Assembly: GCA_020831585.1 (NCBI GenBank)
Contig: JAFIGE010000003.1
Span: 1-64,000 of the forward strand
Length of the DNA stretch: 64,000 bases
Direction of reading: 5' to 3'
Source: Opitutales bacterium
GTDB lineage: Bacteria; Verrucomicrobiota; Verrucomicrobiia; Opitutales; Oceanipulchritudinaceae
Shown here: piece by piece, positions 4,312-22,064 of the stretch
Layout: every line of letters starts with the position of its first letter
Numbering within the stretch: the first letter of the stretch is position 1
Made by a program: the position numbers and the translations under genes
The notes under the pieces: generated by a model
The model's database searches: none
What the model was told of the DNA's origin: nothing
Seen by the model: only the letters and a program-made list of their open reading frames with translations

Positions 4312-4796
4312 TGAAGCGGGAAATAAGCGAACGCGGTTGCGCTCTAGCAAGGTAATATTTTCCCTAATCGACGAGTCCGCTTGGCGAAAGGCCTCAAACG
4401 GGCAGAATGTTCGTTGCCGGATCATGGACTTTTCCACCCGGCCGCCCGATTCCGGCAAGAGAGGGCGGAAGTGGCGCGCCCTTCCCACGCGGTCCTGTTG
4501 CGGTGCCGGAATTTCCCCCGTCTGATTTGCGCCCCCATCTATCTGCATGAGCAAGTAAGTTTTTAGCGCCTATGTGCGTTTCTTCGGCCAGTGGTGAAAA
4601 TTTATTTAAATTTGCAAACAACTGAAAAACAATACTTTACAATGAAGACGACATCCCGAAATCAGGAAAAGTGTCGATCTCCGACAGAAAGGCGAAATTT
4701 TCCGCTTGTATAAGTGCATAAAAATGCATGAGATACCGGCTTATGTGGACCAAGGCGGACCACATTCACGAAACAATAACCTCAATAACCTTATCT

Positions 4797-5489
4797 ATGA
4801 GATTGCTTAAACTACTCGTCGTCGCGGGGACCCTCCCCGCCTCTTCCCTAATTGGGAATTTCATCGTGAACCCCGATTTCAGCTTGGGTCCCAACGGCCT
4901 CGACGGCTACGAAGCCTTCGCGGTTTGGTCGCAGGGTGCGACCGGTTTCTCCTCTGCCTGGGGCCTTGCCGATGCGCCTGTTGTGGCCCCTGGAAATGGC
5001 ACCGCTGTTTTCAGTATGAACACGCAACTTGCGAACGCCGATCCGTTTTGGTCGGGAGCCACCCAGGAAATGACCTTCCAGCAGAATTTCTGGACCCCTG
5101 ACAACAATGCGGGTGTCCCCTCCGGCCCGGACCTTTACAACCTTGAGCTGGTCTTCACCGGCACTGTGGTTGTCTCCGAGGCTTATGCTGCGGGTAACTT
5201 GGGACAGGCGTTTATTCAGTTCCTGGACCAGAGCTACAACGCCGTGGCTTTTGTGAGCGTAGACGTCACCACCTTGGGACCGGACGGAGAGTTTTCCCTC
5301 ACCGCCCTGACGCCCGCCGACGGACTGAACATCATCCAGATTGGCTTCCGGAACTCCGGAATTGAGGGAACCGCCGGCCAGATGACGATTTCAAACATCT
5401 CCCTGGCAGTGATTCCCGAGCCGAGCACGTATGCGCTTATCTTCGGCTTCTTGGGTCTGGCCTGGGTGCTCTACCGTCGCCGCCGCTAA
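4797..5489 (+). CDS. PEP-CTERM sorting domain protein
   Basis: Exported protein of 230 residues with a PEP-CTERM tail: VIPEPS near residue 205, a hydrophobic segment (YALIFGFLGLAWVL) and a terminal RRRR cluster. In this system an exosortase (EpsH/XrtA family) recognises the tail and transfers the protein to the envelope or extracellular matrix; no exosortase is in this window. The start at 4797 (MRLLKLLVVAGTLPASS) gives a short hydrophobic N-terminus usable as a signal peptide; an in-frame upstream ATG at 4728 would bury it behind 23 polar residues. The mature part is rich in N, G, F and T with predicted beta-strand pattern and no recognisable catalytic motif. Monocistronic, followed by a strong terminator. 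Confidence 0.85.
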   Translation: MRLLKLLVVAGTLPASSLIGNFIVNPDFSLGPNGLDGYEAFAVWSQGATGFSSAWGLADAPVVAPGNGTAVFSMNTQLANADPFWSGATQEMTFQQNFWTPDNNAGVPSGPDLYNLELVFTGTVVVSEAYAAGNLGQAFIQFLDQSYNAVAFVSVDVTTLGPDGEFSLTALTPADGLNIIQIGFRNSGIEGTAGQMTISNISLAVIPEPSTYALIFGFLGLAWVLYRRRR

Positions 5490-5527: not shown

Positions 5528-5562
5528 GAGCCGCACTGTCATTGGGTGCGGCTCTTTTTTTT
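5528..5562 (+). terminator. Rho-independent terminator of the PEP-CTERM gene
   Basis: Perfect 9-bp stem (GAGCCGCAC at 5528-5536 with GTGCGGCTC at 5546-5554), a 9-nt loop, then eight T residues (5555-5562). It lies 38 bp after the PEP-CTERM stop and isolates it from the giant-protein operon downstream. Confidence 0.92.
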
Positions 5563-5631: not shown

Positions 5632-5667
5632 TCACCTAAAAAGGATATTATGCTTGATTTTAGGTGA
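5632..5667. promoter_or_regulatory. Perfect 10-bp dyad, candidate operator of the giant-protein operon
   Basis: TCACCTAAAA (5632-5641) and its exact reverse complement TTTTAGGTGA (5658-5667) flank a 16-bp AT-rich spacer containing TATTAT (5646-5651), which could act as a -10 element. A third TCACCTA lies at 5735-5741, just before the 5752 start codon. The arrangement looks like a repressor or activator site for the operon that follows; a role as RNA hairpin is the alternative. No regulator can be assigned. Confidence 0.45.
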
Positions 5668-5751: not shown

Positions 5752-8700
5752 ATGAGGAACGCCCCATTTTTACCTGTCTGTCTGCTCTGGACCGCTGCGC
5801 GTTGGCGGTTTGTTTTGGCGGTGAGTTGTCTTTGTCTGTCGGCTTCGGGCTTGCAGGCGCAGGTCAATGCCACCGTGCAAAATATCTGGGTGGGTGATCG
5901 AGCCATCGTGGTGGCCCCGGTGAATGCCTCGGCCACCGCCCACCGCGGATCCACCCAAGTGACCTTTTCGCGACAGCTGTTTCAGGACTTTATTGGCGAC
6001 GTGCGGGTGCGGGTGAGCTTGCTCGACAGTTCGCTCAACCCGGTCCCGCTGAATGATCCGAGCGGCAAGAATCCATTTTTTTACGAGAGCGATCCCGCCT
6101 TCATTTTCCTTTCCTCCTTCAGCAATTCCTCCACGCAGTTTTTCACCTATGCGCTGCAGCCGGCGGCGGGTGTCGTTCTCGACGCAGGGGAGAATTACTT
6201 TATCTCAGTGCAGGCGCAGGCGTTTTCGGGCGGCGGCTTCGTCAATGTGGGGAGCGCCTCCGCCACGGGCGCACAGCGCATCTTTCATTTCACCAATACG
6301 GACCCCAACGACGTTCTGGTGAACGTGCGCACGGCGGTTACGGCGGTTTCGATCCAGCGGCGCTGGGCCATCGCGACGTCCCCTTCCGCGCGCGAGTTTG
6401 TTGCAAGGGTGAGCTACGAAGCCTTTCGCTACGATGGGTTTACGGGTGGGGCAGGGACAGATCCCATCTGGATTCACGTGGATCTTGAGCTGCGCGAGGA
6501 GGGCACCCACGCACCCGTGCCCCTTGTGCAAAGCCGCTTCACCACCCTGCGGAACGTTTCCCGGTTTGATGGCCCCTCGGGTGATCGGCGGCCCCATCAG
6601 TTCACCGTGAGCAACGAGGATTTTCTCATCGAACCGCTCGGGCAGCTCGACACGGTGAACCGGCGCTACTACGTGCATGCGGTCGTGCGCCATGTCGAAA
6701 ACCCCCTGTTTGGCACGGAGATGGCAGGCGTGGACCGGGCCACTTCGAACCAGCGTTTCCTCCACTTCAACGGCACCTTGCGCTACGGGGCGGTGGATAT
6801 GCAAATCCACACCATCACGAATAATCCCACTTCCGGAGCCACATTCACGGCGGGCTCCCACCATGGCACCAGCCTCACTTTCGGGCTGGCGCGCTGGCCG
6901 GGTGATGACCGTCTGCAGGTGACGGGGGGCACGGTCAATGTGAGCCTCTTCAACTCCGGTGTGGCCGTCGTCACCTCGGGCACATCCTCGCTCACGGCCA
7001 CCGAGGATGCCGCACGGGAGGGGAGGGCCAATGGGCTGCGGGTGCGGCGCGGCGCTACCGTGAACCTCACGGCAAGCGGAGCCACCTCTTTGATCACGGC
7101 CTACTTTCCTACCGGCAGCGGGTATTCGACCAACCTCGACCGCAATTTCGAGGCGACCGTGGAAGTCGGGAACCGCGCCCTCAACGCCCAGCTCGTGCCC
7201 ACGGGCACCTTCACGCTCAGCACCGGGGGCCCCTTCGTGACCTTTGAGGAGACAAAGCCCCTCATGCTCTTCACCAACTCCTTTGTTTTCGATTTTTCCG
7301 CGGGGGAAATCCGATTTGATATCACGGGGGCTATTGGCGCGCGATTCTTCGACGAGTCGCGCCTCGGTGCGGCACCGCTGAGCGATGAATCCCTCCGCAT
7401 CAAGCCCTCCAACAACAACTTCTTCCATTGGGTGCGCAATGTGAACCACGGGCCGGGCGTGCTTCGTCCGGACAGCCGGGGCGGTGCCCTCCTCACGGCC
7501 ACGGTGAGCCTCAACCCCGGTGGCCTGCGCGCACACTACCCGCTCGACGCCCGTATTATCTGGGGATCGGGGGGCGTCATTGCCATCGTCGACGACGACA
7601 TCGATCCGGCAGCGAGTTTCCTGCCTTCAGCCGACCCAGTGGAGGTGCGCTATCGCCAGGACTGCCCGGAGGGCGACTGCGGAGACACCTTTGGCACGCT
7701 TGTTTTCGCGCCGGATGGGGAATGGATCTTCGACCGCCGCGGGGGCATCTGGGCGACGGGGTCGCTCTCCGCCGGCGCGGGTGAGCCCGACACCGGTCTG
7801 CGCTGGGGGGCCAACAATGGCGGTGCGAGCTTTGCCCACGCCACCGCGCCCTTCGCCTCCGGCACCTTCCGCATGCCCGGCTCTTTTTGGGTCAACGGCA
7901 CCGGCGGACCGGACGTGGGGAGCGCCGCCAATGGGGTAGGGGTCATCCTCGGTGCCGGGCTCGACCCCGACGATCCGGATCTTTTTGATGATCCCGGTTC
8001 CGCCGCCTACGCCAGCGGCACCGGCCTCTACGCCGGTCTCAATTTGCTCCCGCCTCCCGGTCACCAAGCCATTGCCACCCTCGGCGATGCCGACCCCGTG
8101 ACCTTCACCCTTGCTTCCTGGAGCAAATACTACGTGCGGACGTCGGGCGTTTCGGGGGTGCACCAGGCGGCCTCGGGCTCCTTTGCAGGGGCGCTCCCGC
8201 TCTACGGCTACGAGATCACCCTTGCCACCTTCGGGCTGAACTTCCTCAGCAATCTCAACTTCGACTCCGTCACCAGCGGCAACGTCTTCCTCGGCTTCCC
8301 TTCGGATATCGACATCCCGTTCCAAGAACTCACCTTCACCTGCGTGGGCGCGCCCGACCGTGCTTCCGTGGGCGATGATCCGTTGCGGCGCACCCTCGAT
8401 TACTGGGTGGCCAACATCGACATCCACTACCTTCTCTTTTCGCCGGGCAACCGCGCCGAGGCCGCCTGCGACGCCTCCCAGCCCCATGTCCTCACGACCG
8501 CCGTCGGAGCCTTCGCGAGCAACATCCGCGAGGCGCTCTTCGGCTACCTCTATTTCGAGCGCACCGGAGAATTGATGAAACCGGCCAGCGAGGATGCGCC
8601 CGAGGGAGCCGTCTTCAGCCTGTATTCCGACGCCAACGCCACCCTCGTGGGCCTCGGCGAAGAGACCTACGATCTCTCCGTCTCCAAGGTCTACTTCAAC

Positions 8701-11301
8701 GACTTTGCCGCCAATGAGAGTCAGGGCCCCAACGGCTGGATCAACCTCCTCGGCCACCTCAAGGTGCCCTTTTTCGAGCGCCCGGCGGTGCACATCCTCA
8801 CTCTCGCCAATGAAGACAACACCACCGACCCCATCTGGATTCTCGGGGGTGATCTCGATGGGGATGGCCTCCGGCGGGATTATTCTCCCGCGAGCGACCC
8901 CTTCCACCTCGGGCGTCCGGCGGATGTCTCCTTCGTGAACTACCGGCGGGGCGTGCGCGAGCGCGATCTCGTGCGCGTGCGGCAGACCGTCCTCAGCGTC
9001 TTCGACCTGGATTTTCCCGTGCGCTGGTTTTCGGGGCTGCGGGGCTTTCGCGGCACCGGCCCGATCACGGGCGAATACCTCGTCTTTGAGGCCACGCGCG
9101 AGCTCGAGGTCCTGACCTCGAAAGAGATTTCCATCAGCTTTGGAGCGAGTGCCGACGCCCTCCCGCAGATCCGCCAGACCCAAGGGGCCATGCGCGTCAT
9201 CACCCGTGCCGCCGCGGATCCGGACGACGAGGCCAACCCCGGCATGGCCTTTCAGCGGCTGGGTGAAGTCACCGCGCTCGCCATCGAAGAAGCCGTCGGC
9301 GAAGGCTACCTCCTCGCCCCCGAGGCCCTGCGCTCTCTCGTGACCGACGAAGTCTACCACCACGTGCGCAGCCATGTGGCCGCTGTTTTGGGGGAGACGG
9401 CGGATGCGATGTATCCGCAACTCGTCGCTAACTTTACGCCGGGTACCGGCTTCAACCCGGCCTTCGATCTGGCAGGCTTTGTCGACCAATTCCTCAACGA
9501 TCCGGCTTTCCTCGTGAGCGCGCGGTCGCGGCTGGAGGACATGCTCGGTCCCTCGCCCTCGACTCCCGGCACACTCCTCTATGCGATCGACCGCGATCTG
9601 CTCCGCGCCAAGGCGGGGCTGCGCGCCTTCCACACGGCCTCCCGCTACTATCCCGACGATCCCTCCATCCCCGCCGAACTGCGCGGCACGCTCATCTACG
9701 ATCCCGATTACGGCGACGACCAACCCAGCGTCACCCTTCCCGCTCTCTTTGAAAAGCGGGATGGCAAACACATCAAGGTCCGGCAGCTCATCCAATACCT
9801 CGTCGCCACGATGGGCGGGGGCGAGGCCGGGGGGGCCATCGTGGGCATCCTTACCCAGTCCATTCCCAACCAGTTGGACAACGCCACCGTCGGCCTCGAC
9901 ACCATCGTAAAGACCCTGGAGCGCCTGGAAGAGCGTATCGATGAACTGCGCGCCAGTCTTCAGCCGGGCGGCACGCTCCGCGGCGAACTCGAACGCGCGC
10001 TCGAACAGGAGGCTCTCGAAGCCCGGAGCTTCGCGGCCCTCCTCGCGGAGGTGCGGGAGGACCTGCTCCTTGGCTTGAACCATCCCCGCTGGTTCGGCGA
10101 ACGCATGGGCGAAGACGGCCGCTTCTTCCGCGAGACAATGGTCCGCTACACGGATTTTGTCGCCAACGGGTCATTCTCCGGGGCCCTGCGTTCCACCCTC
10201 CGGGGCCATTTCTACGGCATCGATCTGGCCATCGACGATGCCTACGCCTCCTGCTTCCAGTTCCTCAGCCGCCTCCTCGCCGACACCTACGAGCAGATGT
10301 TCGGCATCTTTTTCCCCGATCCCCGCGCGGCGCTCGCCCCCCTCGCCGAATCCATCGGCTACGGCAAAATCTCGGGCAAGGTCCATTTCAACGGCGACAG
10401 CCTCCGCCTCCTTCGCCTCGACTTTGAGGGTAAGGTCAACTTCGGGGAGAGCTTCAATTACGGGCTCAAGCTTTACTTCATCATGAAGGCCCTCAAATCC
10501 GACGGTCCCGGCACCTGTGACTTCGGAGAGGGCAGCGTGGCCGTGGAGGCCAAGATCGGCCTCGCCATCATCGAGTCCGAGAGCAAGCCCAAGGGCAGAT
10601 GGGAGGACAAGCCGGACGGCACCCGCGAATACAAACTGGAGTCGCTCAAACCCAAGGAGAAGACCTTCGGGCTCGAGTTCCGCATGCTCCTGGTCGATGG
10701 AGATGTCCGTGGCATGGGCGGGGGCTTTTCCTGGAAGGGCAGCCTCGAACTCGGCCCCATGAAGCTCGAGAAACTCGCCGCCGCCTGTTCCTTCGGTGAT
10801 TTTGAGAACTTCTTCGCAGCCTCCGTGGCCGGGAAATTCGATAAGACGAAGGTCGAGATCGGGCTCTTCGCGGGCAAGACCTGCACGCTCGATCCGCTCA
10901 AGATGATCGATAAAAAGATCACCGAGCTGCTCACCGGTCCGGCCTTCACCGGTTTCTATGTCTATGCGGAGGGCTGGGTGCCGATCTATGATTTTGGCTG
11001 CCTCTTCAACGTTTCCATCGGGGTAGGGGCGGGCATCCTCTACGATGAGGTCGCTCCTGTCTGGGGCGGCAAGCTCATGGGGGGCATCAAGGCGCAGGCA
11101 GTGTGTCTGCTCACGGTGAAGGGTTCGCTCACCCTCGCATTCCTCAGCGAGGCCGGGGAGTTCAACTTCAGCGGCCTGCTCGATGTCTCCGCCGAACTCG
11201 GCTTCTGCCCCTTCTGTCTGAAATTCCGCATCTGTTCCACGGCCCAATATCTCGGGGCCACGGACACCTGGGACTTTGAATTCGCCGGCTCCTGCCCCTG
11301 A
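5752..11301 (+). CDS. Giant exported protein A of a three-gene operon, function unknown
   Basis: A 1849-residue protein I do not recognise. Residues 1-36 form a signal peptide (hydrophobic VLAVSCLCLSASGLQA, likely cleavage after LQA). Roughly residues 37-1150 are beta-rich, Ser/Thr/Gly/Asp-rich segments typical of extracellular sandwich domains, including an acidic DLDGDGLRRDY loop near 1034 that could bind calcium. Residues about 1160-1500 turn helical, with a likely coiled coil around 1380-1450 (heptad-like LDTIVKTLERLEERIDELRA). From about 1535 to the end there are alternating hydrophobic/polar glycine-rich stretches suggestive of many amphipathic beta strands, with several cysteines close to the C-terminus. 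The stop overlaps the next gene by one base (TGATG), implying translational coupling. The start at 5752 has no clear Shine-Dalgarno site. Export is well supported; any role (adhesion, surface assembly) is inference. Confidence 0.8.
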   Translation: MRNAPFLPVCLLWTAARWRFVLAVSCLCLSASGLQAQVNATVQNIWVGDRAIVVAPVNASATAHRGSTQVTFSRQLFQDFIGDVRVRVSLLDSSLNPVPLNDPSGKNPFFYESDPAFIFLSSFSNSSTQFFTYALQPAAGVVLDAGENYFISVQAQAFSGGGFVNVGSASATGAQRIFHFTNTDPNDVLVNVRTAVTAVSIQRRWAIATSPSAREFVARVSYEAFRYDGFTGGAGTDPIWIHVDLELREEGTHAPVPLVQSRFTTLRNVSRFDGPSGDRRPHQFTVSNEDFLIEPLGQLDTVNRRYYVHAVVRHVENPLFGTEMAGVDRATSNQRFLHFNGTLRYGAVDMQIHTITNNPTSGATFTAGSHHGTSLTFGLARWPGDDRLQVTGGTVNVSLFNSGVAVVTSGTSSLTATEDAAREGRANGLRVRRGATVNLTASGATSLITAYFPTGSGYSTNLDRNFEATVEVGNRALNAQLVPTGTFTLSTGGPFVTFEETKPLMLFTNSFVFDFSAGEIRFDITGAIGARFFDESRLGAAPLSDESLRIKPSNNNFFHWVRNVNHGPGVLRPDSRGGALLTATVSLNPGGLRAHYPLDARIIWGSGGVIAIVDDDIDPAASFLPSADPVEVRYRQDCPEGDCGDTFGTLVFAPDGEWIFDRRGGIWATGSLSAGAGEPDTGLRWGANNGGASFAHATAPFASGTFRMPGSFWVNGTGGPDVGSAANGVGVILGAGLDPDDPDLFDDPGSAAYASGTGLYAGLNLLPPPGHQAIATLGDADPVTFTLASWSKYYVRTSGVSGVHQAASGSFAGALPLYGYEITLATFGLNFLSNLNFDSVTSGNVFLGFPSDIDIPFQELTFTCVGAPDRASVGDDPLRRTLDYWVANIDIHYLLFSPGNRAEAACDASQPHVLTTAVGAFASNIREALFGYLYFERTGELMKPASEDAPEGAVFSLYSDANATLVGLGEETYDLSVSKVYFNDFAANESQGPNGWINLLGHLKVPFFERPAVHILTLANEDNTTDPIWILGGDLDGDGLRRDYSPASDPFHLGRPADVSFVNYRRGVRERDLVRVRQTVLSVFDLDFPVRWFSGLRGFRGTGPITGEYLVFEATRELEVLTSKEISISFGASADALPQIRQTQGAMRVITRAAADPDDEANPGMAFQRLGEVTALAIEEAVGEGYLLAPEALRSLVTDEVYHHVRSHVAAVLGETADAMYPQLVANFTPGTGFNPAFDLAGFVDQFLNDPAFLVSARSRLEDMLGPSPSTPGTLLYAIDRDLLRAKAGLRAFHTASRYYPDDPSIPAELRGTLIYDPDYGDDQPSVTLPALFEKRDGKHIKVRQLIQYLVATMGGGEAGGAIVGILTQSIPNQLDNATVGLDTIVKTLERLEERIDELRASLQPGGTLRGELERALEQEALEARSFAALLAEVREDLLLGLNHPRWFGERMGEDGRFFRETMVRYTDFVANGSFSGALRSTLRGHFYGIDLAIDDAYASCFQFLSRLLADTYEQMFGIFFPDPRAALAPLAESIGYGKISGKVHFNGDSLRLLRLDFEGKVNFGESFNYGLKLYFIMKALKSDGPGTCDFGEGSVAVEAKIGLAIIESESKPKGRWEDKPDGTREYKLESLKPKEKTFGLEFRMLLVDGDVRGMGGGFSWKGSLELGPMKLEKLAAACSFGDFENFFAASVAGKFDKTKVEIGLFAGKTCTLDPLKMIDKKITELLTGPAFTGFYVYAEGWVPIYDFGCLFNVSIGVGAGILYDEVAPVWGGKLMGGIKAQAVCLLTVKGSLTLAFLSEAGEFNFSGLLDVSAELGFCPFCLKFRICSTAQYLGATDTWDFEFAGSCP

Positions 11302-14300
11302 TGAAACACCGTCACCGCCATCTCTCTCTTTCCCTGCCCACCGCCCTGACGCTGGTCTTCTGCACCCTTGGGCTGAGCCTGCCCGTCGCGCCGGCAGCCC
11401 GCGCGCAGCCGCTCGAAAACACGCTCTTTGCCGCTGCCACCACCACGCTCGACGAGCATGGCCGCGCCTGGGCCTACCTTTCCTGGGCCGGTTCCGATTT
11501 GCGCCTGCTCGAGAATCCGCTCTTCGCCATCTATGTGAAGGAGTCGCCGGCTGATGATCTCTCCGCGAACTACCAGGCTCAGGCCCTCATTGGCCGCCAG
11601 ACAGAGCCGGCCACCGTCGCCGCGCTCCTCGAGCGTGGTCGGATGCTCGGCGAAGACCTGGACCTCTTGGAACAACGCCTCGACGGCCTCTTCGCCCAGT
11701 ATGTGCCTTCGCCGGACATCTCCCTCCCGGAGAAACTGGCCGCCATTGTCCTCGCCGCAGAGTTTCTGCCGGAGGTCGAGCGCAACCTCGCCCTGCTCGC
11801 CCGCCAACACCCCTCCGCCGCCATGGCCTCCGGCACCGGCTGGGCCTCCCGCCTTCCTGTGGGGGCCACCTGGACCTACGAAGTGCGCCTCTGTCCGCCT
11901 GATACGGTTCTTCCCGGCGAATGCACCCGAGTGGTTGCGCGGCTCAGCGTCACCGGTGGCGATCCCGTCATTCTTCCCGCGCCCGGCGCCCCCGCCGATC
12001 TTTCCTGGCGCGATCCGCGCGGCCACCTGAATATCCGCATCGCCTGGGCCACGCCGCCCGCCCTGCGCCAGCTCGCCCTTCTCCAGACGGGTTTTGACAT
12101 CTACCGCGTTGATCCGGATTTCTACGCCGTCAACTACGCCGGGCAGACCCTCGAGCCCGGCCGTCTCGCCGCCGACGAGCAGGCAAGCTCCCATCTCATC
12201 CGCCGCGCCAACAACCAGCCGATCTTTCCCGAGCGCAATATGGACCAGAGCGAACTCAACATCCTGGCCGCGCTTTCCCTCGATGGCGAAGAAGTGGAAA
12301 CCTTCTTTTTCGCCGACGATAACGACGCCTTTGCGCCGGGTGGCGCGCCCTTCCAGGACGGCGACCAATTCTATTACATGGTCGTCGCGCGCGACCTTCT
12401 CGGCCGCTCCGGCCTCTCCTCGCCCGGCACCCTCATGACGGTGTGCAGCCGCTACTCGCCTCCGGTGCCGGAGGGCATCCGCGTGGAGGTGTTGCCGCAA
12501 ATCGGCGCCGACGGTGAAAACGATCCCGTCTTCCGCATTGTCTGGACCCCAAACGATAATGCGGACCCGGAAAGCATCCGCACCGATGCCTACTTCGTCT
12601 ACCGCTGGCGTAACCCAAACGAGATCTTTGCGCTGAACGATCCCTTCGATCCCGCCCACCTCGCCGCCGCCTTCATCACCCACGAGGACGAAGTGGCCTT
12701 CCTCATCGCGGAAGACCTCTCCCCCGCCCGCCCCCGCCTCCTCCCCGGCGATCCAGAAGATGCCGCCAACCTCACCCACTGGTACACCGTGCGTGCGGTC
12801 AACCTGAGCGCCTGTCCGCCGGGTCTCGTGCTTTCCGGCCACAGCGCCCCCGTCTCCGGCGTATTGCGCCACTGGGACCCGCCCGGCGATCCCTCCGGCG
12901 AGCTCTTTCCCCGTTGCCCGAGCCCTTCCATCGATTACGTCGGCACCAACACCTTCGACGCCACCGCCAACCCCTTTTACCAGCGCCACCAACTCGTCGG
13001 TCTGCGTTGCCAGCGCACAGGAGACGACGGCATCGAGTGGGTCGAATACTACATCGGCCCCTTCACCGACGATCCCGCTGCCGACCGCGCCCAAGCCGAC
13101 TTCTTCCAGCGGGTCTACTTCCCGGAGGGGGCGGCCTATGTCGACACCTTCCCGGTCTTCCGCGGGGGCGTGGACGGTCCGCCTCCCGGTCCCACCCTCG
13201 CGGCGCGCGTCGGCACCCGTTGGGGCAGTGTCTCGGAATGGACGGGTGTCGGCCAAATCGGGATCTCCCCCGGCTTCTTCACTCTGAGCACCTTCAACGC
13301 CTCGCTCACCCTGTCCGAAGCCAAAGCCGGCGACTCGTGCCGCCAACACCTTACCGTCGATCCGGCCACGGGTGAAGTCACGCCCCTGCGCGTGCTTCTC
13401 AACCTGCCCGTCCGCACCCGCGAATACAAGGTCTACACCCGTTTCAACGACGGCCCCCTCGCCCTCGTTGCCCAGTGGCTCGGCGACTATCGCGAGGTCG
13501 ACGAGGTCGAAGTTTTCCTCGATCAATTCCCCGGCATGGACGGCACCCTCTGCGTCTATTATCAAAACTTCGACGCCGAGGGCACACCGGGTCTGCTCGT
13601 GCAACTGGGCTGCGTGGAGTTGACCGGTCTTCAGCCCATGCCGCCGCCCATGGTGGCCCGCGCGCGTCGCCTCACGGAGACGCCCGCCTCGATGTCTGTC
13701 GGCGGCGAAGGTTCCGGCGAAGTCTTCGGTTCCTTCAGCGATGACCCCGCCGCCTCTCCCGGCATTGAGCTGACCTGGTTCTGCCCACCCCATGGCGTGG
13801 AGCGTTTTGAAATCTGGATCGCCCGCGCCGACGGCAACCCGCTCCCCGATGACATCTCGGACGACCTCTATTCCCGCAAGACGACCGTGGCCAATTACGG
13901 GGGCGTCTGGGATGTGGACTTTTCCGTCTATGAAACCGGGCGTGTGGGCGTGAACATTGGCGAGCGCGGCAGCCCGGAGTTTTCCGCCCTCCTGGCCCTG
14001 GACAGCGCCGCTCACCATCATGTTTTCATCCGCTCCATCGGCCCGTCCGGGCGGGCCAGTGTCGATAGCAATATCGTCCGCATCGGCGGTACCCTGACCG
14101 CCCCGCCACCCGACCCGGAGGCACAAGTGCCCTGGCCCGCCCGGCAGATGGAGGGTCTCGGGGGCAACCCGCTGGCGGTGGCGCTTGCCGGCTACCGCGC
14201 GCGCTTTGTGGAAATTTTCCCCGACACCACTTTTCATTTCCGGGGAGGGGCCATCCGCATCGGACGCACAAACATGCCTTCGATGTTTCAGGCCAACAAC

Positions 14301-14768
14301 CCGATCCTGCCTCCCTCCGGTCCGCCCTGGCACTTCACCATTGGCCACCTCTCGCCCGAGCTTCAGCTCTTCGGTGTGCCCGATCTTGCCCTGATCCGCG
14401 AGGGCGACCGCGGGCTCCTCCCCATCGTCGTCTACCGCTATCAGGTCCCCGGGGGCGACTTTCCCGAGGTCTCCGGCGACATCTATCAGGTCACTCCGTT
14501 GATGCGCAATATCGCCGCCGAGTATGTCCCGGAAGGTGCTTTGCCCGGGGGCGGAAATGAGTTCGTCCAAACCCCCTACTGGGCCATTTTCGATCCCTAC
14601 ATCGCCGTCGTTCCAGGCACCGGCAGCAACCCCAACGATTGGGACATCGTCCTCATCGACCCGCAGTCCACCGTGCGCGGTGCCCATTATCGCTACCTCA
14701 TTGCCCGCTTTGATGACGAAGGTGAACTCCTCGCCATCTATCCCACCAACATCCTTGAAGTCCCATGA
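11301..14768 (+). CDS. Giant exported protein B of a three-gene operon, Fn3-like segments
   Basis: A 1155-residue exported protein of unknown function. A signal peptide covers residues 1-35 (LPTALTLVFCTLGLSLPVA core, ARA cleavage site). Residues about 225-400 and 780-930 contain fibronectin-III-like patterns (for example ADLSW, FDIYRVD, FYYMVVA, VERFEIWIAR), alternating with acidic loops. Cysteines are scattered through the chain, consistent with a disulfide-bonded extracellular protein. No catalytic motif, transmembrane anchor or PEP-CTERM tail is visible. It starts inside the stop codon of protein A and its own end overlaps protein C by 4 bp (14765-14768), so all three should be made in fixed order from one mRNA. 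The most economical inference is that A, B and C form one surface or secreted assembly. Confidence 0.8.
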   Translation: MKHRHRHLSLSLPTALTLVFCTLGLSLPVAPAARAQPLENTLFAAATTTLDEHGRAWAYLSWAGSDLRLLENPLFAIYVKESPADDLSANYQAQALIGRQTEPATVAALLERGRMLGEDLDLLEQRLDGLFAQYVPSPDISLPEKLAAIVLAAEFLPEVERNLALLARQHPSAAMASGTGWASRLPVGATWTYEVRLCPPDTVLPGECTRVVARLSVTGGDPVILPAPGAPADLSWRDPRGHLNIRIAWATPPALRQLALLQTGFDIYRVDPDFYAVNYAGQTLEPGRLAADEQASSHLIRRANNQPIFPERNMDQSELNILAALSLDGEEVETFFFADDNDAFAPGGAPFQDGDQFYYMVVARDLLGRSGLSSPGTLMTVCSRYSPPVPEGIRVEVLPQIGADGENDPVFRIVWTPNDNADPESIRTDAYFVYRWRNPNEIFALNDPFDPAHLAAAFITHEDEVAFLIAEDLSPARPRLLPGDPEDAANLTHWYTVRAVNLSACPPGLVLSGHSAPVSGVLRHWDPPGDPSGELFPRCPSPSIDYVGTNTFDATANPFYQRHQLVGLRCQRTGDDGIEWVEYYIGPFTDDPAADRAQADFFQRVYFPEGAAYVDTFPVFRGGVDGPPPGPTLAARVGTRWGSVSEWTGVGQIGISPGFFTLSTFNASLTLSEAKAGDSCRQHLTVDPATGEVTPLRVLLNLPVRTREYKVYTRFNDGPLALVAQWLGDYREVDEVEVFLDQFPGMDGTLCVYYQNFDAEGTPGLLVQLGCVELTGLQPMPPPMVARARRLTETPASMSVGGEGSGEVFGSFSDDPAASPGIELTWFCPPHGVERFEIWIARADGNPLPDDISDDLYSRKTTVANYGGVWDVDFSVYETGRVGVNIGERGSPEFSALLALDSAAHHHVFIRSIGPSGRASVDSNIVRIGGTLTAPPPDPEAQVPWPARQMEGLGGNPLAVALAGYRARFVEIFPDTTFHFRGGAIRIGRTNMPSMFQANNPILPPSGPPWHFTIGHLSPELQLFGVPDLALIREGDRGLLPIVVYRYQVPGGDFPEVSGDIYQVTPLMRNIAAEYVPEGALPGGGNEFVQTPYWAIFDPYIAVVPGTGSNPNDWDIVLIDPQSTVRGAHYRYLIARFDDEGELLAIYPTNILEVP

Positions 14769-17700
14769 ACCGCCCGTTCCGCCGACTCCTTGTTCCGGCC
14801 GCTCTCTTTCTCAGCGCGGTCCTCTGGCTACCGGCTGCCCAGGTCTCCCGCACGTCCGGTGAAATCCTCCTGCGCGGCGACTTCAACGGCGATGGCGTGG
14901 CCGACATCGCCCTCGTCGATCTCAATGCGGGTGGCCTCCGGATCGGCTTCGGTTTTTTTGATGGCGGTTTTTCCTGGGTGAACCTCGCCTCGGGCTTGCC
15001 CTCGGTGGAAGATGCCGCGGTCGGGAAAATCGATTTCCCCGACCGCGACCAAATCATTCTCGCGTCTGCCACGGGTAACCGCATCCGCGTGCTCACACCA
15101 GGCGCTTCCGGTGTCCCGGAGCCCCCGCGTGATATTTTCGTGCCGGGCATCGGGCCGGGCACCGTGGCACTTCCCCAGTTGGGACCGTTCCCATCGGGCG
15201 CTTTGGCGGATTTCGCCGTCGGCACGACCAAGGACGGAATCGGGACGGTGCCCCGCCTGCACTTTGTCCGAAACGCCGATCCGGCCACCCTCCTTGCTTC
15301 GGCAGATCTGCCGGTGCCGCCCGAGCGGCTGCGCATCTATCAGCCGCGGACCTCCGATTTGCCTCGACTCGGTTTTACCTACTTTACCGAAACGGGTGGT
15401 TTCTTCCGGTTGATAAACTCCGGCGGGCTTCCACCTTTTTCCACCCATTTTGAGATCAGTGGACTGGCACCGGGCACGGAGGTTCTCTCAGGCTTTTTCC
15501 GAAGCGACGCGACCAACGCCACCTTTCTCTTTTTCGTTCCCGGCGATTCCGGTTTTGTCGCCCGGTTAGCCGTTTTTCTAAGTGGCCAATATCTCCTCTT
15601 TCCTCCCACCTTCATGGACCTGGAAGTCGCGATCGAGCGGCTCGAAGTCATTGGTGCGCCCGGCCAGCAGCGCCTCGCCGCCTTTCTTGCTGATGGAAGC
15701 GTGCGCTTCTATCACTTTGAAGGAGCCCCTTCCAGTGCGCCGGAGCTGTTGGGCACCTTCACGCCCCCCCCCGGCGAACGCTATCTGCATGCCTTCCCCG
15801 TGTGGGGAGCGCCCGACAATCTGGAACTGCTCGCGGGTTCTTCCGGCGTGAGCACCCGCCTGGAGGCCTACACGCGCGCGCCCGACGGCACCTACAGCCT
15901 TGCCCGCAGCGACGCGCTCGTCCCGCCCATGGCCCGGTCCGGCGCGAGCACGCTCCTGCTCTTCACGAGCGATCCCTTTGCTTCCCTAAACGCCTCCCTG
16001 CGCGCCCGCCTGGCCGCCGGGGATTGGACCCTTGCCGCCGCCGTGGGCGTGTCCCCCAATCAGGCGGTGGCCGATGTGGCCCTCTTCGGGGATGCCGCAT
16101 CCGGTTTGGTCGAAGCGGGCACAGTCACGTTTGCGCGCCCCGCCGACGCCCTCTTCGCCCTGCCCAATCAATTGCGCCCCGATGTCTCCGCCTTCTCCCT
16201 GGATTCCGCCGACGGGGCTCTGCGCGGCGAAGCCACCCTCCAGCCCGATGGCGGCCACTTCCGCTCCAGCGTGCGGGCCTCCCTCCAATTCCGGGATCCC
16301 GCCGACGCGGGCATCGGCGAGTTGCTCTACCGCATCGGTCCCTCGCAGCCGTGGCAGCCTTACAGCGGGCCCTTTGTTGTGGGCGAGACGGCGCGCGTCG
16401 AATGGCTTTGGCGGGATGTGGCCAACCTCGAGGCATCGGCCATCCGCCAGGCCGACTTTATCATTGAACAGGCGCCCTGGGAGGCCGATTGCAACGGCGA
16501 TGGCATACCCGATTTTGTGCGCTCAGCCCTGGGCCTCGACCCCTGTGGTCCCGCCGATTCGGATGGCAACGGCGTTTCCGATTTCCTCGAAATTCTCCTC
16601 GGCGCGGAGCCTGCGGATCTCCTCGATCCTGATTTTCCATTCCCCGCTCCCGCCCCCGGCGAGTTTGCCCCGCCCCGACCCACGGGTGTCAACGACCTCA
16701 GCCAGTTCGATCTCGCCGTCACGCCCATTTCCACCACTGGCCAACCCGGTTTTCCTCCGGCCCTTGCCCTCAGCCTGAACGGGGTGGCCACAGAGGATAC
16801 TTTCGGGACCGTCGTCAGTGTGCGCGACCTCAACGGGCGCCTCGTCGGTCGACCGGGCGGTGTGCCTGATTTCGGTGGAACCGCCCCCACTTTCATCGAG
16901 ACGCGAGCGCAGGGTTTGCCCGGCGTGCCCGATCCCTCCGCCCTCATCACCCGCCTCGGCAGCAACGATCCGCGCCGCTTCCTCGTCGTCACTACGGGAA
17001 CGCGCTTTGAGATCGACTTCACCAGCCCGGATCCCGCCCGCGGGCGGGAGTTGCTGGGCTTCGTGCCGTTGCCCCGCCTCCAACCGGCGGAGATCGCCTA
17101 CACTTTCGAAGGCCGCCCGCCCGCCGAGGAGGCCGCCGCCTGGATCGCGGCCGCCCGCGCTGCTTACGCCGCCATCGAAAACGAGTTGGTTGCCACTACT
17201 TTGTCGTGGGAAACCACCCTTTCCGCGCTCCTCGCCGAATACATCATGGGCCGCCTCCTGCATGAACGCGGCGTTCTTCCCGCGCCCACGCTCACGCTCA
17301 CCCCCTTCCGCACCAGCGAGACCTCCGTCGAGCCCGATTTTGAGATCTTTCCCGAGCCCGACTACATCGATCTGCGCGTGGGCTTCGAAGTGGAGCCGCT
17401 CACCCTCCTCTCCCTCGAAGAACCGGATGATTCTGGCCAGGCTTACCGGCTGCACGCCATCCTCGGTTACGTCGCCGACCGCCTTGCCGATCCCACCGAC
17501 TCCGGTGCGCAAGCGCTCCGCCAACTCGCTGCCGCCGTCTACCAGGCCAGTGCGCGTGAACTCCATGGCCGTCCGCTCGAATTTCGCTCGCCCATCGACG
17601 TCCTGCGCGAGTTTTTCTGGTCGGGCGAACTCGACGAGCCCTACGCGGAAGCTGCCACCCTCAGTCCTGCAAACATCGCCGCCGCCATCGTCGCCCGTGA

Positions 17701-18409
17701 GGGCTTCGTGGACGGCGTCGGAGGGAGTGCCCGCCCGTTTGAGACGGTCACGGCACGTTTTGTCGAAGGAAACCTCCTCGCCGCCTGCCCGGGCGATCTT
17801 GTCGATCACCTCACCGGCGAGCCGCTCAATCTCGTCACCCCCACGGGCCGACGCTACGTCATCCCCGCCACGCTCGTTCCGCCCCCCGGATCGCTCCTTT
17901 CCATCACCGGCTTTACCGACGCGCTGCCTGGTTCCTGCCCGGGGCGGCCGCTCGAACCCTTCCTCATCCGTCTCGTCCATCTCGCTCTCGGCGGGGAGGC
18001 GCGCGACGACCTTATTCCGCCTTCCTGGACGCGCCTCTTTTTTGTCGAAGGCGCGGACCCCTTTGCCGATCTGGATGGCGACGGCTATTCCGTGCTACAG
18101 GAATTCCTTGCCGGAACGGACCCCACCGATCCCCTGAGCCTCCCCGCCGATCCGCCTGTGGATCTCGGCCCGCCGCCCGTGGTTATTGAGGAGGCGGGTG
18201 GGGTGCATACCTACACGTTCCGGTTCCCTTATCCCGGCCTCTATGCCTCCCGCACGGCCTTTCGCCTCTTCGTTTCGTCGGATCTGGTAAACTTTGTCGA
18301 TACCGGCTTCCACGCGGCCCACGCAGGCGATGACACCTGGCAGCTGACCCTCGATCTCTCGGCCTATCCCGGCCCCCTCTTCGCCTTCTTCCGCATGGAA
18401 TTCCGTTGA
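14765..18409 (+). CDS. Giant exported protein C, FG-GAP/VCBS-like with calcium-type loops
   Basis: A 1214-residue exported protein. The signal peptide ends near residue 25 (LFLSAVLWLPAA). Right after it, GDFNGDGVADIALVD (about 38-52) is an FG-GAP/VCBS-type calcium loop opening a region that resembles beta-propeller blades. Two further EF-hand or thrombospondin-3-like segments occur: DCNGDGIPD and DSDGNGVSD (about 575-610) and DLDGDGYSVLQEF (about 1102-1114). The last ~90 residues form a beta module with SSDLVNFVDTG and the ending FFRMEFR, similar in layout to the C-termini of the secreted proteins at 50120-56290. The ATG overlaps the protein B stop by 4 bp. It probably folds in a calcium-dependent way outside the cell; partner and function are unknown. 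Confidence 0.8.
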   Translation: MNRPFRRLLVPAALFLSAVLWLPAAQVSRTSGEILLRGDFNGDGVADIALVDLNAGGLRIGFGFFDGGFSWVNLASGLPSVEDAAVGKIDFPDRDQIILASATGNRIRVLTPGASGVPEPPRDIFVPGIGPGTVALPQLGPFPSGALADFAVGTTKDGIGTVPRLHFVRNADPATLLASADLPVPPERLRIYQPRTSDLPRLGFTYFTETGGFFRLINSGGLPPFSTHFEISGLAPGTEVLSGFFRSDATNATFLFFVPGDSGFVARLAVFLSGQYLLFPPTFMDLEVAIERLEVIGAPGQQRLAAFLADGSVRFYHFEGAPSSAPELLGTFTPPPGERYLHAFPVWGAPDNLELLAGSSGVSTRLEAYTRAPDGTYSLARSDALVPPMARSGASTLLLFTSDPFASLNASLRARLAAGDWTLAAAVGVSPNQAVADVALFGDAASGLVEAGTVTFARPADALFALPNQLRPDVSAFSLDSADGALRGEATLQPDGGHFRSSVRASLQFRDPADAGIGELLYRIGPSQPWQPYSGPFVVGETARVEWLWRDVANLEASAIRQADFIIEQAPWEADCNGDGIPDFVRSALGLDPCGPADSDGNGVSDFLEILLGAEPADLLDPDFPFPAPAPGEFAPPRPTGVNDLSQFDLAVTPISTTGQPGFPPALALSLNGVATEDTFGTVVSVRDLNGRLVGRPGGVPDFGGTAPTFIETRAQGLPGVPDPSALITRLGSNDPRRFLVVTTGTRFEIDFTSPDPARGRELLGFVPLPRLQPAEIAYTFEGRPPAEEAAAWIAAARAAYAAIENELVATTLSWETTLSALLAEYIMGRLLHERGVLPAPTLTLTPFRTSETSVEPDFEIFPEPDYIDLRVGFEVEPLTLLSLEEPDDSGQAYRLHAILGYVADRLADPTDSGAQALRQLAAAVYQASARELHGRPLEFRSPIDVLREFFWSGELDEPYAEAATLSPANIAAAIVAREGFVDGVGGSARPFETVTARFVEGNLLAACPGDLVDHLTGEPLNLVTPTGRRYVIPATLVPPPGSLLSITGFTDALPGSCPGRPLEPFLIRLVHLALGGEARDDLIPPSWTRLFFVEGADPFADLDGDGYSVLQEFLAGTDPTDPLSLPADPPVDLGPPPVVIEEAGGVHTYTFRFPYPGLYASRTAFRLFVSSDLVNFVDTGFHAAHAGDDTWQLTLDLSAYPGPLFAFFRMEFR

Positions 18410-20995: not shown

Positions 20996-21991
20996 TCAGC
21001 GAAGTCTAAACAGAGAAGATGCATCCTCCTCAGAAAACAGGGACTTGGGGCGTTTCGGACGTTTGGGGAAATACTTTCCTTTGTTTTCCGCTGTCCACGC
21101 CTCAATAAAGGCTTTTAATCCGATGATTCCTCCCCGCGTCATGTGGCGAAGCTGGCAAAGCAACGATTCCCCCCGGGTGAGGGTGCCGCCTTGGCGGAGC
21201 GTCCGCTCCAAACCCTCCTTCGAGACTGTGCCCCCCTTGCCCGGATCGCTCCCGGAAACAAACAACCGCCGACGATACAGCGCGGCGATCTCCTCGATCG
21301 ACTCCGCATGTTCCGCCGCCAGGCGCACAAACAGCGGAAAGCGGCTGAATCCCCTCCGCGTGCCCGCCGCTTCCCCGTAGCCGCTGAAGCGATAGTCCTT
21401 GGGATCCTTCACGATCCCCGCCCGCACCGCATTCAAATCGATATACGCCGCCACCGCTGTCAGCGCCGCCGCCGAATCCTCCACTAAAACACTGTGGAAA
21501 CGCTCCTCCCAGAGCGTCCCCAGGCGGTCCTGTTTCCGGTTGTGGATGATCGAAAAGCGTTGTTTGAGGATTTTCACAAACATCGGCAGTGAGCCCATGC
21601 GCCCGATCAGCAGGGTCCGCATGCGTTCGCGGATCTCTCCCCCGGCGGCCAAAGCCCGATCAATGCGGAAAAAGGAGAGCGGTTGCCCCTTCCGCTCCTC
21701 GCCATAGAGCAAGCGCGCCCGTCGGCGAAGCTCTTCATCATCCGGTTCCCCCGGCGAAGCCGGCACCTCCACCAGGAGATGAAAGTGGTTGTCCAGAATC
21801 GCATACGTGAGCACCCTCACCCCGCAAAACGCCTCCACCCGCCGCAGCAATCCGCGGAAGACCTCCTTGTCCACATCGGTCAGACGAAACGACCGGTCAA
21901 CCACCCGGCTGACAACGTGATAATACGCCCGGGCACCCCTGATCAGTATCCGGGGCGCACGGCGGGACTTCGGTGGAATCAATTGCATCAT
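20996..21991 (-). CDS. REP-associated tyrosine transposase-like protein (RAYT, Y1_Tnp)
   Basis: A 331-residue protein of the TnpA_REP/IS200-like HUH superfamily. Features are GARAYYHVVSRV at residues 19-30, the metal-binding HUH motif HFHLLVEV (His69, His71), and YIDLNAVRAGIV, the usual RAYT catalytic tyrosine segment. RAYTs are single-copy domesticated transposases that bind and cleave REP hairpins and are held to spread REP/REPIN elements. No IS ends or accessory genes flank it, consistent with a RAYT rather than a mobile IS200. ATG start at 21991 or 21988 is preferred over a TTG at 22030. An inverted pair of REP-like hairpins at 49894-49948 is a possible substrate. The extended C-terminal part beyond the Y1 domain is not recognised. 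Confidence 0.85.
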   Translation of the reverse strand: MMQLIPPKSRRAPRILIRGARAYYHVVSRVVDRSFRLTDVDKEVFRGLLRRVEAFCGVRVLTYAILDNHFHLLVEVPASPGEPDDEELRRRARLLYGEERKGQPLSFFRIDRALAAGGEIRERMRTLLIGRMGSLPMFVKILKQRFSIIHNRKQDRLGTLWEERFHSVLVEDSAAALTAVAAYIDLNAVRAGIVKDPKDYRFSGYGEAAGTRRGFSRFPLFVRLAAEHAESIEEIAALYRRRLFVSGSDPGKGGTVSKEGLERTLRQGGTLTRGESLLCQLRHMTRGGIIGLKAFIEAWTAENKGKYFPKRPKRPKSLFSEEDASSLFRLR

Positions 21992-22064
21992 GGTAACTTC
22001 ACAATCTGCTCCAAGAACCACACGAGTCAAGAAAAAATATATCAGGTATATTTATTTTTGATTA

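Follow-up and report, generated by a model that had tools for sequence, protein, structure and literature searches.

A stretch of 64,000 nucleotides from an Opitutales bacterium of the phylum Verrucomicrobiota (GenBank assembly GCA_020831585.1, contig JAFIGE010000003.1, positions 1 to 64,000; hereafter, the window) contains an operon of three consecutive plus-strand genes, denoted A, B, and C, that together encode 4218 amino acids (aa) according to the list of open reading frames (ORFs):

5752..11301, + strand: gene A, 1849 aa, exported type, without a Pfam or NCBIfam match
11301..14768, + strand: gene B, 1155 aa, exported type, helical stretch at the N terminus, then Fn3-like repeats
14765..18409, + strand: gene C, 1214 aa, exported type

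The TGA stop codon of A and the ATG of B overlap by 1 base in the junction TGATG, and B and C overlap by 4 bases in the junction ATGA. As read from the translations, each protein starts with a hydrophobic, signal-peptide-like stretch. The ORFs and the junction sequences bear out the first-pass annotation of the window, which had described three overlapping genes for signal-peptide proteins of this total length; the fixed stoichiometric production that it derived from the overlaps was not borne out, the overlaps suggesting translational coupling only. Among the homologs, a crude test for a hydrophobic h-region was positive for 65/72 A, 69/80 B, and 61/74 C proteins, and lipobox-like starts were rare (1/72 A, 1/80 B, and 6/74 C).

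The gene order of the operon is conserved across many loci. A scan of GTDB genome contigs with the window A sequence alone yielded no locus; with the A profile, 105 stretches matched, and the locus counts given here refer to the best 80 of these. According to their titles, the matching contigs belong to Verrucomicrobiota lineages, among them Kiritimatiellales and Pontiellaceae, except for two titled merely “bacterium.” Counted by hand from the locus listing, the order A-B-C is found in 62/80 loci, and 13 more meet a contig end, 12 of them showing A-B and one A alone. The five exceptions are L116 (B-C-A), L099 and L128 (both C-A), L091, where A and B are separated by 6.6 kb (5789-12389), and L121, with A alone. 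The last of these comes from Roseibacillus persicicus, and its genome (G452) is taken to be the same as G307 from identical B coordinates; in G307, one complete A-B-C coexists with a solitary A and a single B-C pair located on a different contig. Thus, A can be unlinked from B-C, yet all three genes are retained in this organism. The median gap is −4 bp between A and B (n = 93) and +6 bp between B and C (n = 81), and 88/93 and 76/81 gaps, respectively, fall within −450 to +150 bp, all measured from the longest ORF start in two overlapping sets of loci. Because many loci retain the unit, at about 22 to 34% identity with the window copy, it is not a product of chance.

The three genes also occur in the same genomes. 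Among 89 related genomes, A was found in 13 and B in the same 13, 12 of which have a strong C match; in the thirteenth (G069, taken as locus L151), a C-like frame detected by the C profile only follows B. The single window C sequence matched 22/89 genomes, 10 of these 22 with short and weak matches, mostly to the TSP3 stretch. Across 387 genomes of the phylum, A gave strong matches in 22 (2 more have weak, helical-only matches) and B was found in 23. The C profile matched 311 of these genomes, mostly at profile positions 538-620 and 985-1124 only, and broad C matches, defined by E < 1e-40 plus coverage with the separation chosen after the list was viewed, occurred in 22. The union of A, B, and C carriers comprises 23 of the 387 genomes, and the two gaps among them, C in G324 and A in G280, lie at contig ends judging by coordinates. 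Fisher p values for co-occurrence in the 387 genomes were 6e-35 (A/B) and 2e-32 (A/C), uncorrected for phylogeny; since the genomes are not independent, these values overstate the evidence.

Pairwise distances among loci follow much the same pattern for A, B, and C. After removal of duplicates had reduced 68 loci containing A, B, and C to 59, the correlations between the distance matrices of the proteins were 0.91 (A-B), 0.89 (A-C), and 0.94 (B-C), against a null maximum of 0.16 in 1000 permutations, although species relatedness alone would yield part of these values; the locus set, however, includes paralogs from single genomes. Gene order (including the loci cut by contig ends), co-occurrence, and co-evolution all speak against an independent distribution of the orthologs without conserved order, the outcome that the first-pass annotation had named as contrary to its proposal. 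The conclusion that A, B, and C form a conserved, co-inherited, co-evolving, multicopy unit of exported-type proteins is well supported.

The genome from which the window derives carries about seven such cassettes, on contigs C52, C199, C36, C126, C183, C143, and C181/C142. The last pair, with A at the end of C181 and B-C at the end of C142, represents one or two loci; no overlap of the contig ends was found. The cassettes of this genome are mutually 28 to 38% identical where compared, whereas some are 57 to 77% identical to cassettes of other genomes, so that they represent lineages that are old and have been inherited separately. For the window copy there is no close ortholog, the best B match being 34% identical. 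Gene A is broken in 5/7 copies of this genome, by reading breaks on C36 (L042), C126 (L044), C183 (L045), and C143 (L047) and by stops on C181 (L043); among the copies seen, C is intact in all six, and one copy of B is broken. Two of these breaks coincide with tracts of seven and nine cytosines (C7 and C9), and poly-C/G tracts of at least 7 are more common in the loci of this genome than in 18 loci of relatives. Decay, assembly error, or phase variation through strand slippage at the poly-C tracts may account for the A breaks. The window C gene itself contains a C9 tract at window position 15764.

Neither window A nor window B yielded a Pfam or NCBIfam match at E ≤ 1, and window C gave subthreshold matches only (FG-GAP, TSP3, OmpL47-type, and similar). 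No family match better than E = 0.12 (Pfam) or 0.03 (NCBIfam) was obtained for 48 C-terminal domains of A. A phage or defense system was rejected, as PADLOC models matched none of the three window proteins and the single PHROGs match among them was weak and lay on the TSP3 region of C. The A profile found no relative among viral contigs, and window B found none in phage records; together with the searches for a plasmid origin, each of these covered one protein or the A profile, and none pointed to a phage or plasmid origin. Searches against structure-derived profiles gave nothing useful for the B and C profiles, helical coiled-coil matches only for the A profile, and one weak titin match for A5. 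The Tc (ABC) toxin complex was rejected, since no RHS/YD repeat, SpvB, or TcdB mid domain was matched by Pfam in window A, B, or C, as were PEP-CTERM/exosortase substrates, given that A, B, and C lack a PEP-CTERM match, which the upstream protein encoded at 4728-5489 does have. No description of the triad was found in the open-access literature searched, nor do the available parts of PMC12057145 and PMC13274419 describe it. A-B-C fits no known family or system tested, which speaks against the other outcome that the first-pass annotation had named as contrary, a hit of each protein to a well-described unrelated family, and the view of the first-pass annotation that this is an undescribed exported set was upheld. 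The new components are the C-terminal domain of A and the fixed triad, and the Fn3, propeller, and TSP3 modules of B and C are ordinary.

Protein A was divided into the following regions:

5863..7191, + strand: A residues 38-480 (approximate boundaries), N-terminal region rich in beta structure, which evolves fastest within A
7699..9153, + strand: A residues 650-1134, conserved beta domain (AlphaFold2 [AF2] model and alignment conservation)
9169..10311, + strand: A residues about 1140-1520, helical/coiled-coil region (DSSP of the model)
10363..11298, + strand: A residues 1538-1849, C-terminal barrel-like domain (model), the slowest-evolving part of A

The AF2 model of residues 650-1849 (mc5838bc5358b), built from 52 sequences, has a mean predicted local distance difference test score (pLDDT) of 78 and a predicted template modeling score (pTM) of 0.57, and its first 430 residues, the beta domain, mostly reach a pLDDT of 85 to 96. 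Strands at 1084-1134 follow the beta domain and precede a long helical stretch, which includes helices of 43 and 47 residues according to DSSP and gave weak apolipoprotein/coiled-coil profile matches only. Residues 1538-1845 are modeled as about 16 long amphipathic antiparallel strands of 7 to 17 residues each, with conserved Cys in loops; one face of the strands is hydrophobic (L, V, A, F, G, and I) and the other is polar. In the model, then, the C-terminal domain is barrel-like and amphipathic. It was found in 21/387 genomes, all of them A carriers. The outer-membrane beta-signal consists of alternating hydrophobic residues with F, Y, W, or L at the end. Most A proteins end in Y..NGxWxVD[LFY], and among 99 C termini, the residue is hydrophobic at position −1 in 69%, at −3 in 64%, and at −5 in 71%; the last strand is short, and window A has five extra residues. 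In comparisons of the model with known structures, the first Foldseek rows were ApoB100 and vitellogenin, with LamB next and MTP sixth, at poor root mean square deviation (rmsd). VIA, in which the absence of other folds is not taken as evidence, ranked outer-membrane barrels first (Z of 14.3 to 10.6; rmsd of 10.8 over 275 aligned residues for the top row), and a BFVD search returned nothing at E ≤ 0.001. In one lineage (L082, 729-7412), DUF5122-type propellers have been added at the N terminus of A.

The Fn3-like segments that had been read into B received weak support: Pfam fn3 matched 2/20 B proteins and did not match window B. Protein C comprises the following parts:

14840..15916, + strand: C residues 26-384, beta-propeller (AF2, VIA)
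16487..16624, + strand: C residues about 575-620, first set of Asp-rich, calcium-type loops resembling TSP3 (alignment consensus, homolog matches)
17120..17728, + strand: C residues 786-988, helical domain (DSSP of the model)
18020..18133, + strand: C residues about 1086-1123, second TSP3-like motif (subthreshold profile), followed by a C-terminal beta module

The AF2 model of C residues 24-1214 (44 sequences) has a pLDDT of 81 and a pTM of 0.66. In VIA, its propeller aligned at a Z of about 21 to 23.5 and an rmsd of 3.1 to 3.9 over about 290 to 323 residues; because propellers are common and the best VIA rows are eukaryotic, this match names the fold and not the function. The FG-GAP-like start proposed for C is subthreshold in Pfam (E = 0.037), but the fold predicted there is indeed a propeller. 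Likewise, the proposed calcium loops are TSP3-like and subthreshold in the window copy (E = 0.31) but exceed the cutoff in homologs L151 and L102. Some homologs carry accreted surface-type modules, namely, DUF5122 propellers, Big_9, and cadherin-like domains; in L150 (18867-25331), DUF5122-type propellers are added to a long C frame. Many exported-looking proteins across the phylum share the TSP3 plus beta C-terminal module of C, which may have a general role in sorting or anchoring.

Sequence divergence is unevenly distributed along A, as judged from 20 close pairs that come from overlapping sets of related loci and are not independent. Relative to the protein mean, divergence in A is 3.0 at residues 1-75 (signal peptide included) and about 1.2 to 2.2 at residues 76-450 (2.2 at 76-150 and about 1.55 at 151-300), and it is lowest, at 0.18, at residues 1726-1800. 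B shows a mild peak of 1.56 at residues 601-675, and C has no strong hot spot. This pattern fits an anchored C terminus and an exposed N terminus of A; the divergence data lend no special support to C as a variable binding part.

Our favored reading, whose chances we see as evenly balanced, is that A, B, and C form an obligate three-subunit exported complex of the envelope or cell surface, in which A would be the scaffold or anchor and the N terminus of A, B, and C would point outward. The barrel-like domain would sit in or on the outer membrane, or a different lipid surface, and thereby anchor A; a stalk or plug may be formed by the helical part, and the fast-evolving N-terminal beta domains would face the exterior. 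B would serve as an Fn3-type spacer or connector, and C, with its beta-propeller and calcium-type loops, would probably bind a ligand or surface. The diverged paralogous cassettes of one genome could then give rise to assemblies of different specificity. Physical association, membrane anchoring, orientation, and ligand binding are what we infer here. A more specific and considerably less probable form of this reading would make A the first member of a novel class of scaffolds in the outer membrane, a barrel with at least 16 strands and a helical insert that exports or displays its own variable N terminus and holds B and C outside, as part of a Verrucomicrobiota-specific surface-display or secretion machine diversified like the SusCD systems of Bacteroidota. 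A resembles autotransporters (type V) and other outer-membrane barrels in its signal peptide, variable N terminus, and conserved C-terminal barrel-like domain with a hydrophobic end residue; unlike autotransporters, it has about 16 strands with a helical insert and obligate partners in B and C. Assignment to the classical autotransporters (type Va) was rejected, as no autotransporter family was among the Pfam matches (E ≤ 1) of the 48 A C-terminal domains or of the whole window A. The Planctomycetes-Verrucomicrobia-Chlamydiae (PVC) superphylum also encodes predicted surface proteins of very large size, reaching 85,800 aa; in the available parts of that report, however, these are products of single giant genes, from other clades and without a conserved triad (PMC12057145).

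Several observations weigh against membrane anchoring and an obligate complex. Foldseek with the A model found no solved structure at E ≤ 0.001, and the VIA barrel matches have an rmsd of 6 to 12. The C-terminal domain of A contains 4.4% Tyr+Trp, compared with 9 to 10% in OmpF/LamB/BtuB and 3% in TamB/AsmA, and its dyad fraction is 35 to 42%, compared with 21 to 25% in these porins and 34 to 38% in TamB/AsmA; it also has conserved Cys and short loops on both sides. In addition, A and B-C are unlinked in one genome, that of R. persicicus. Because of the low Tyr+Trp content, the Cys residues, the short loops, and the dyad pattern, the domain may be lipid binding rather than transmembrane, and a lipid-binding groove is the main rival for A. 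Under this alternative, which we regard as unlikely but deserving of attention, A would be a soluble or periplasmic carrier of lipids or hydrophobic ligands, with an AsmA/TamB-like groove or a sheet like that of the large lipid transfer proteins (LLTPs; ApoB, vitellogenin, and MTP), and A-B-C would move or store cargo across the envelope. A shares with these proteins long amphipathic beta strands, a dyad pattern, and aromatic content (the latter two as in TamB/AsmA). Also in its favor are the top Foldseek rows (E of 5e-3 to 8e-2 and probability of 0.05 to 0.14, with ApoB at 5e-3 and 0.14), an ApoB match in VIA at a Z of 12.9, and the weak apolipoprotein matches of the helical part. However, the Foldseek probability is low and the rmsd of the alignments huge, porins score as high as or higher than ApoB in VIA, and no Pfam lipid-transfer family exceeds the cutoff, the best being TamB at E = 0.12 in 1/48 domains. 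The helical part of A also differs: its helices are long and coiled-coil-like, unlike the LLTP superhelix. By the vitellogenin N-terminal domain profile, LLTP membership was rejected, the whole window A being without a Pfam match at E ≤ 1.

The remaining alternatives concern the unit as a whole. Large exported proteins, tight gene linkage, and many diverged paralogs recall the SusC/SusD pairs, and A-B-C might be a functional analog of these, a machine for nutrient or polysaccharide capture with one substrate per paralogous cassette. The many diverged paralogs per genome are in keeping with this proposal, as are the lectin-like PHL/PLL proteins among the C propeller matches, the saccharolytic relatives described in the available parts of PMC13274419, and sulfatase-like genes seen by eye near 5 loci. 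Still, we consider it rather improbable: A-B-C consists of three proteins of different architecture, A, B, and C contain no TonB-dependent receptor, SusD, or carbohydrate-active enzyme (CAZyme) domain, and the flanking genes are unconserved and generally not CAZyme clusters, those in the window looking like carB, a PEP-CTERM gene, and miaB. SusC/SusD membership itself was rejected, as no TonB plug/barrel or SusD Pfam match was found in A, B, or C and lipobox-like starts are few. The PHL rows for C residues 26-384 have a Z of 21.9 and an rmsd of 3.3 to 3.5, but identity is 8 to 9%, many unrelated propellers score equally, and C continues with other domains. No more probable is an adhesin, S-layer-like, or matrix assembly, with B and C as structural coat proteins held by A; an adhesin or matrix had been among the suggestions of the first-pass annotation. 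Surface coats and adhesins typically contain modules such as the Fn3, propeller, TSP3, and accreted Ig/cadherin domains seen here, and the N terminus of A evolves fast; against this, the carriers are only 23/387 genomes, so that A-B-C is not a general coat, and Pfam and NCBIfam revealed none of the repeats or anchoring signals that characterize known adhesins. Finally, the modules of A-B-C are common extracellular domains, and the three secreted proteins could simply be cotranscribed and duplicated as a block without forming a functional complex. This is very improbable given that linkage is kept at about 30% identity, that the permuted genes of L116 are still adjacent, that all three genes are retained where unlinked in Roseibacillus, and that the distance matrices mirror each other.

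If the obligate complex is real, Verrucomicrobiota possess a phylum-restricted multiprotein envelope machine that none of the searched family databases contains and of which a single genome can encode as many as about seven diverged versions. Such a machine would offer a concrete way into the surface and substrate interactions of these important polysaccharide degraders, and its large barrel-like domain would be a new target for structure determination. Since cultured carriers exist (Roseibacillus persicicus KCTC 12988 and Luteolibacter marinus NBU1238), the system is testable.

The operon is preceded by two sequence features:

5528..5554, + strand: terminator-like hairpin with T8, closing the upstream PEP-CTERM gene
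5632..5667, + strand: 10-bp perfect inverted repeat, TCACCTAAAA-16-TTTTAGGTGA, 85 to 120 bp before A

Because the hairpin ends the upstream gene, A-B-C looks like a separate transcription unit. The core pattern of the inverted repeat occurs once in the genome, and the repeat is a possible operator. A search for RNA elements found none. Judged from their sequences, the flanking genes are carB (− strand), the PEP-CTERM gene at 4728-5489, whose assignment is also backed by a profile match, and a miaB-like gene (− strand); in agreement with the first-pass annotation, no adjacent gene accounts for the operon. Across the 80 loci, no neighboring family recurs in more than 11, and the top cluster, inspected by eye, mixes kinases, histidine kinases, and cyclic nucleotide monophosphate (cNMP) proteins. 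Also by eye, a serine/threonine kinase-like neighbor, usually together with an extracytoplasmic function (ECF)-type sigma factor-like one, was seen at L099, L116, L119, L128, L134, and L150, LuxR-like neighbors at L080, L109, and L141, and cNMP/histidine-kinase-like neighbors at L089 and L129. Farther downstream in the window, the gene at 20996-22030 (− strand) resembles, by eye, a repetitive extragenic palindrome (REP)-associated transposase.

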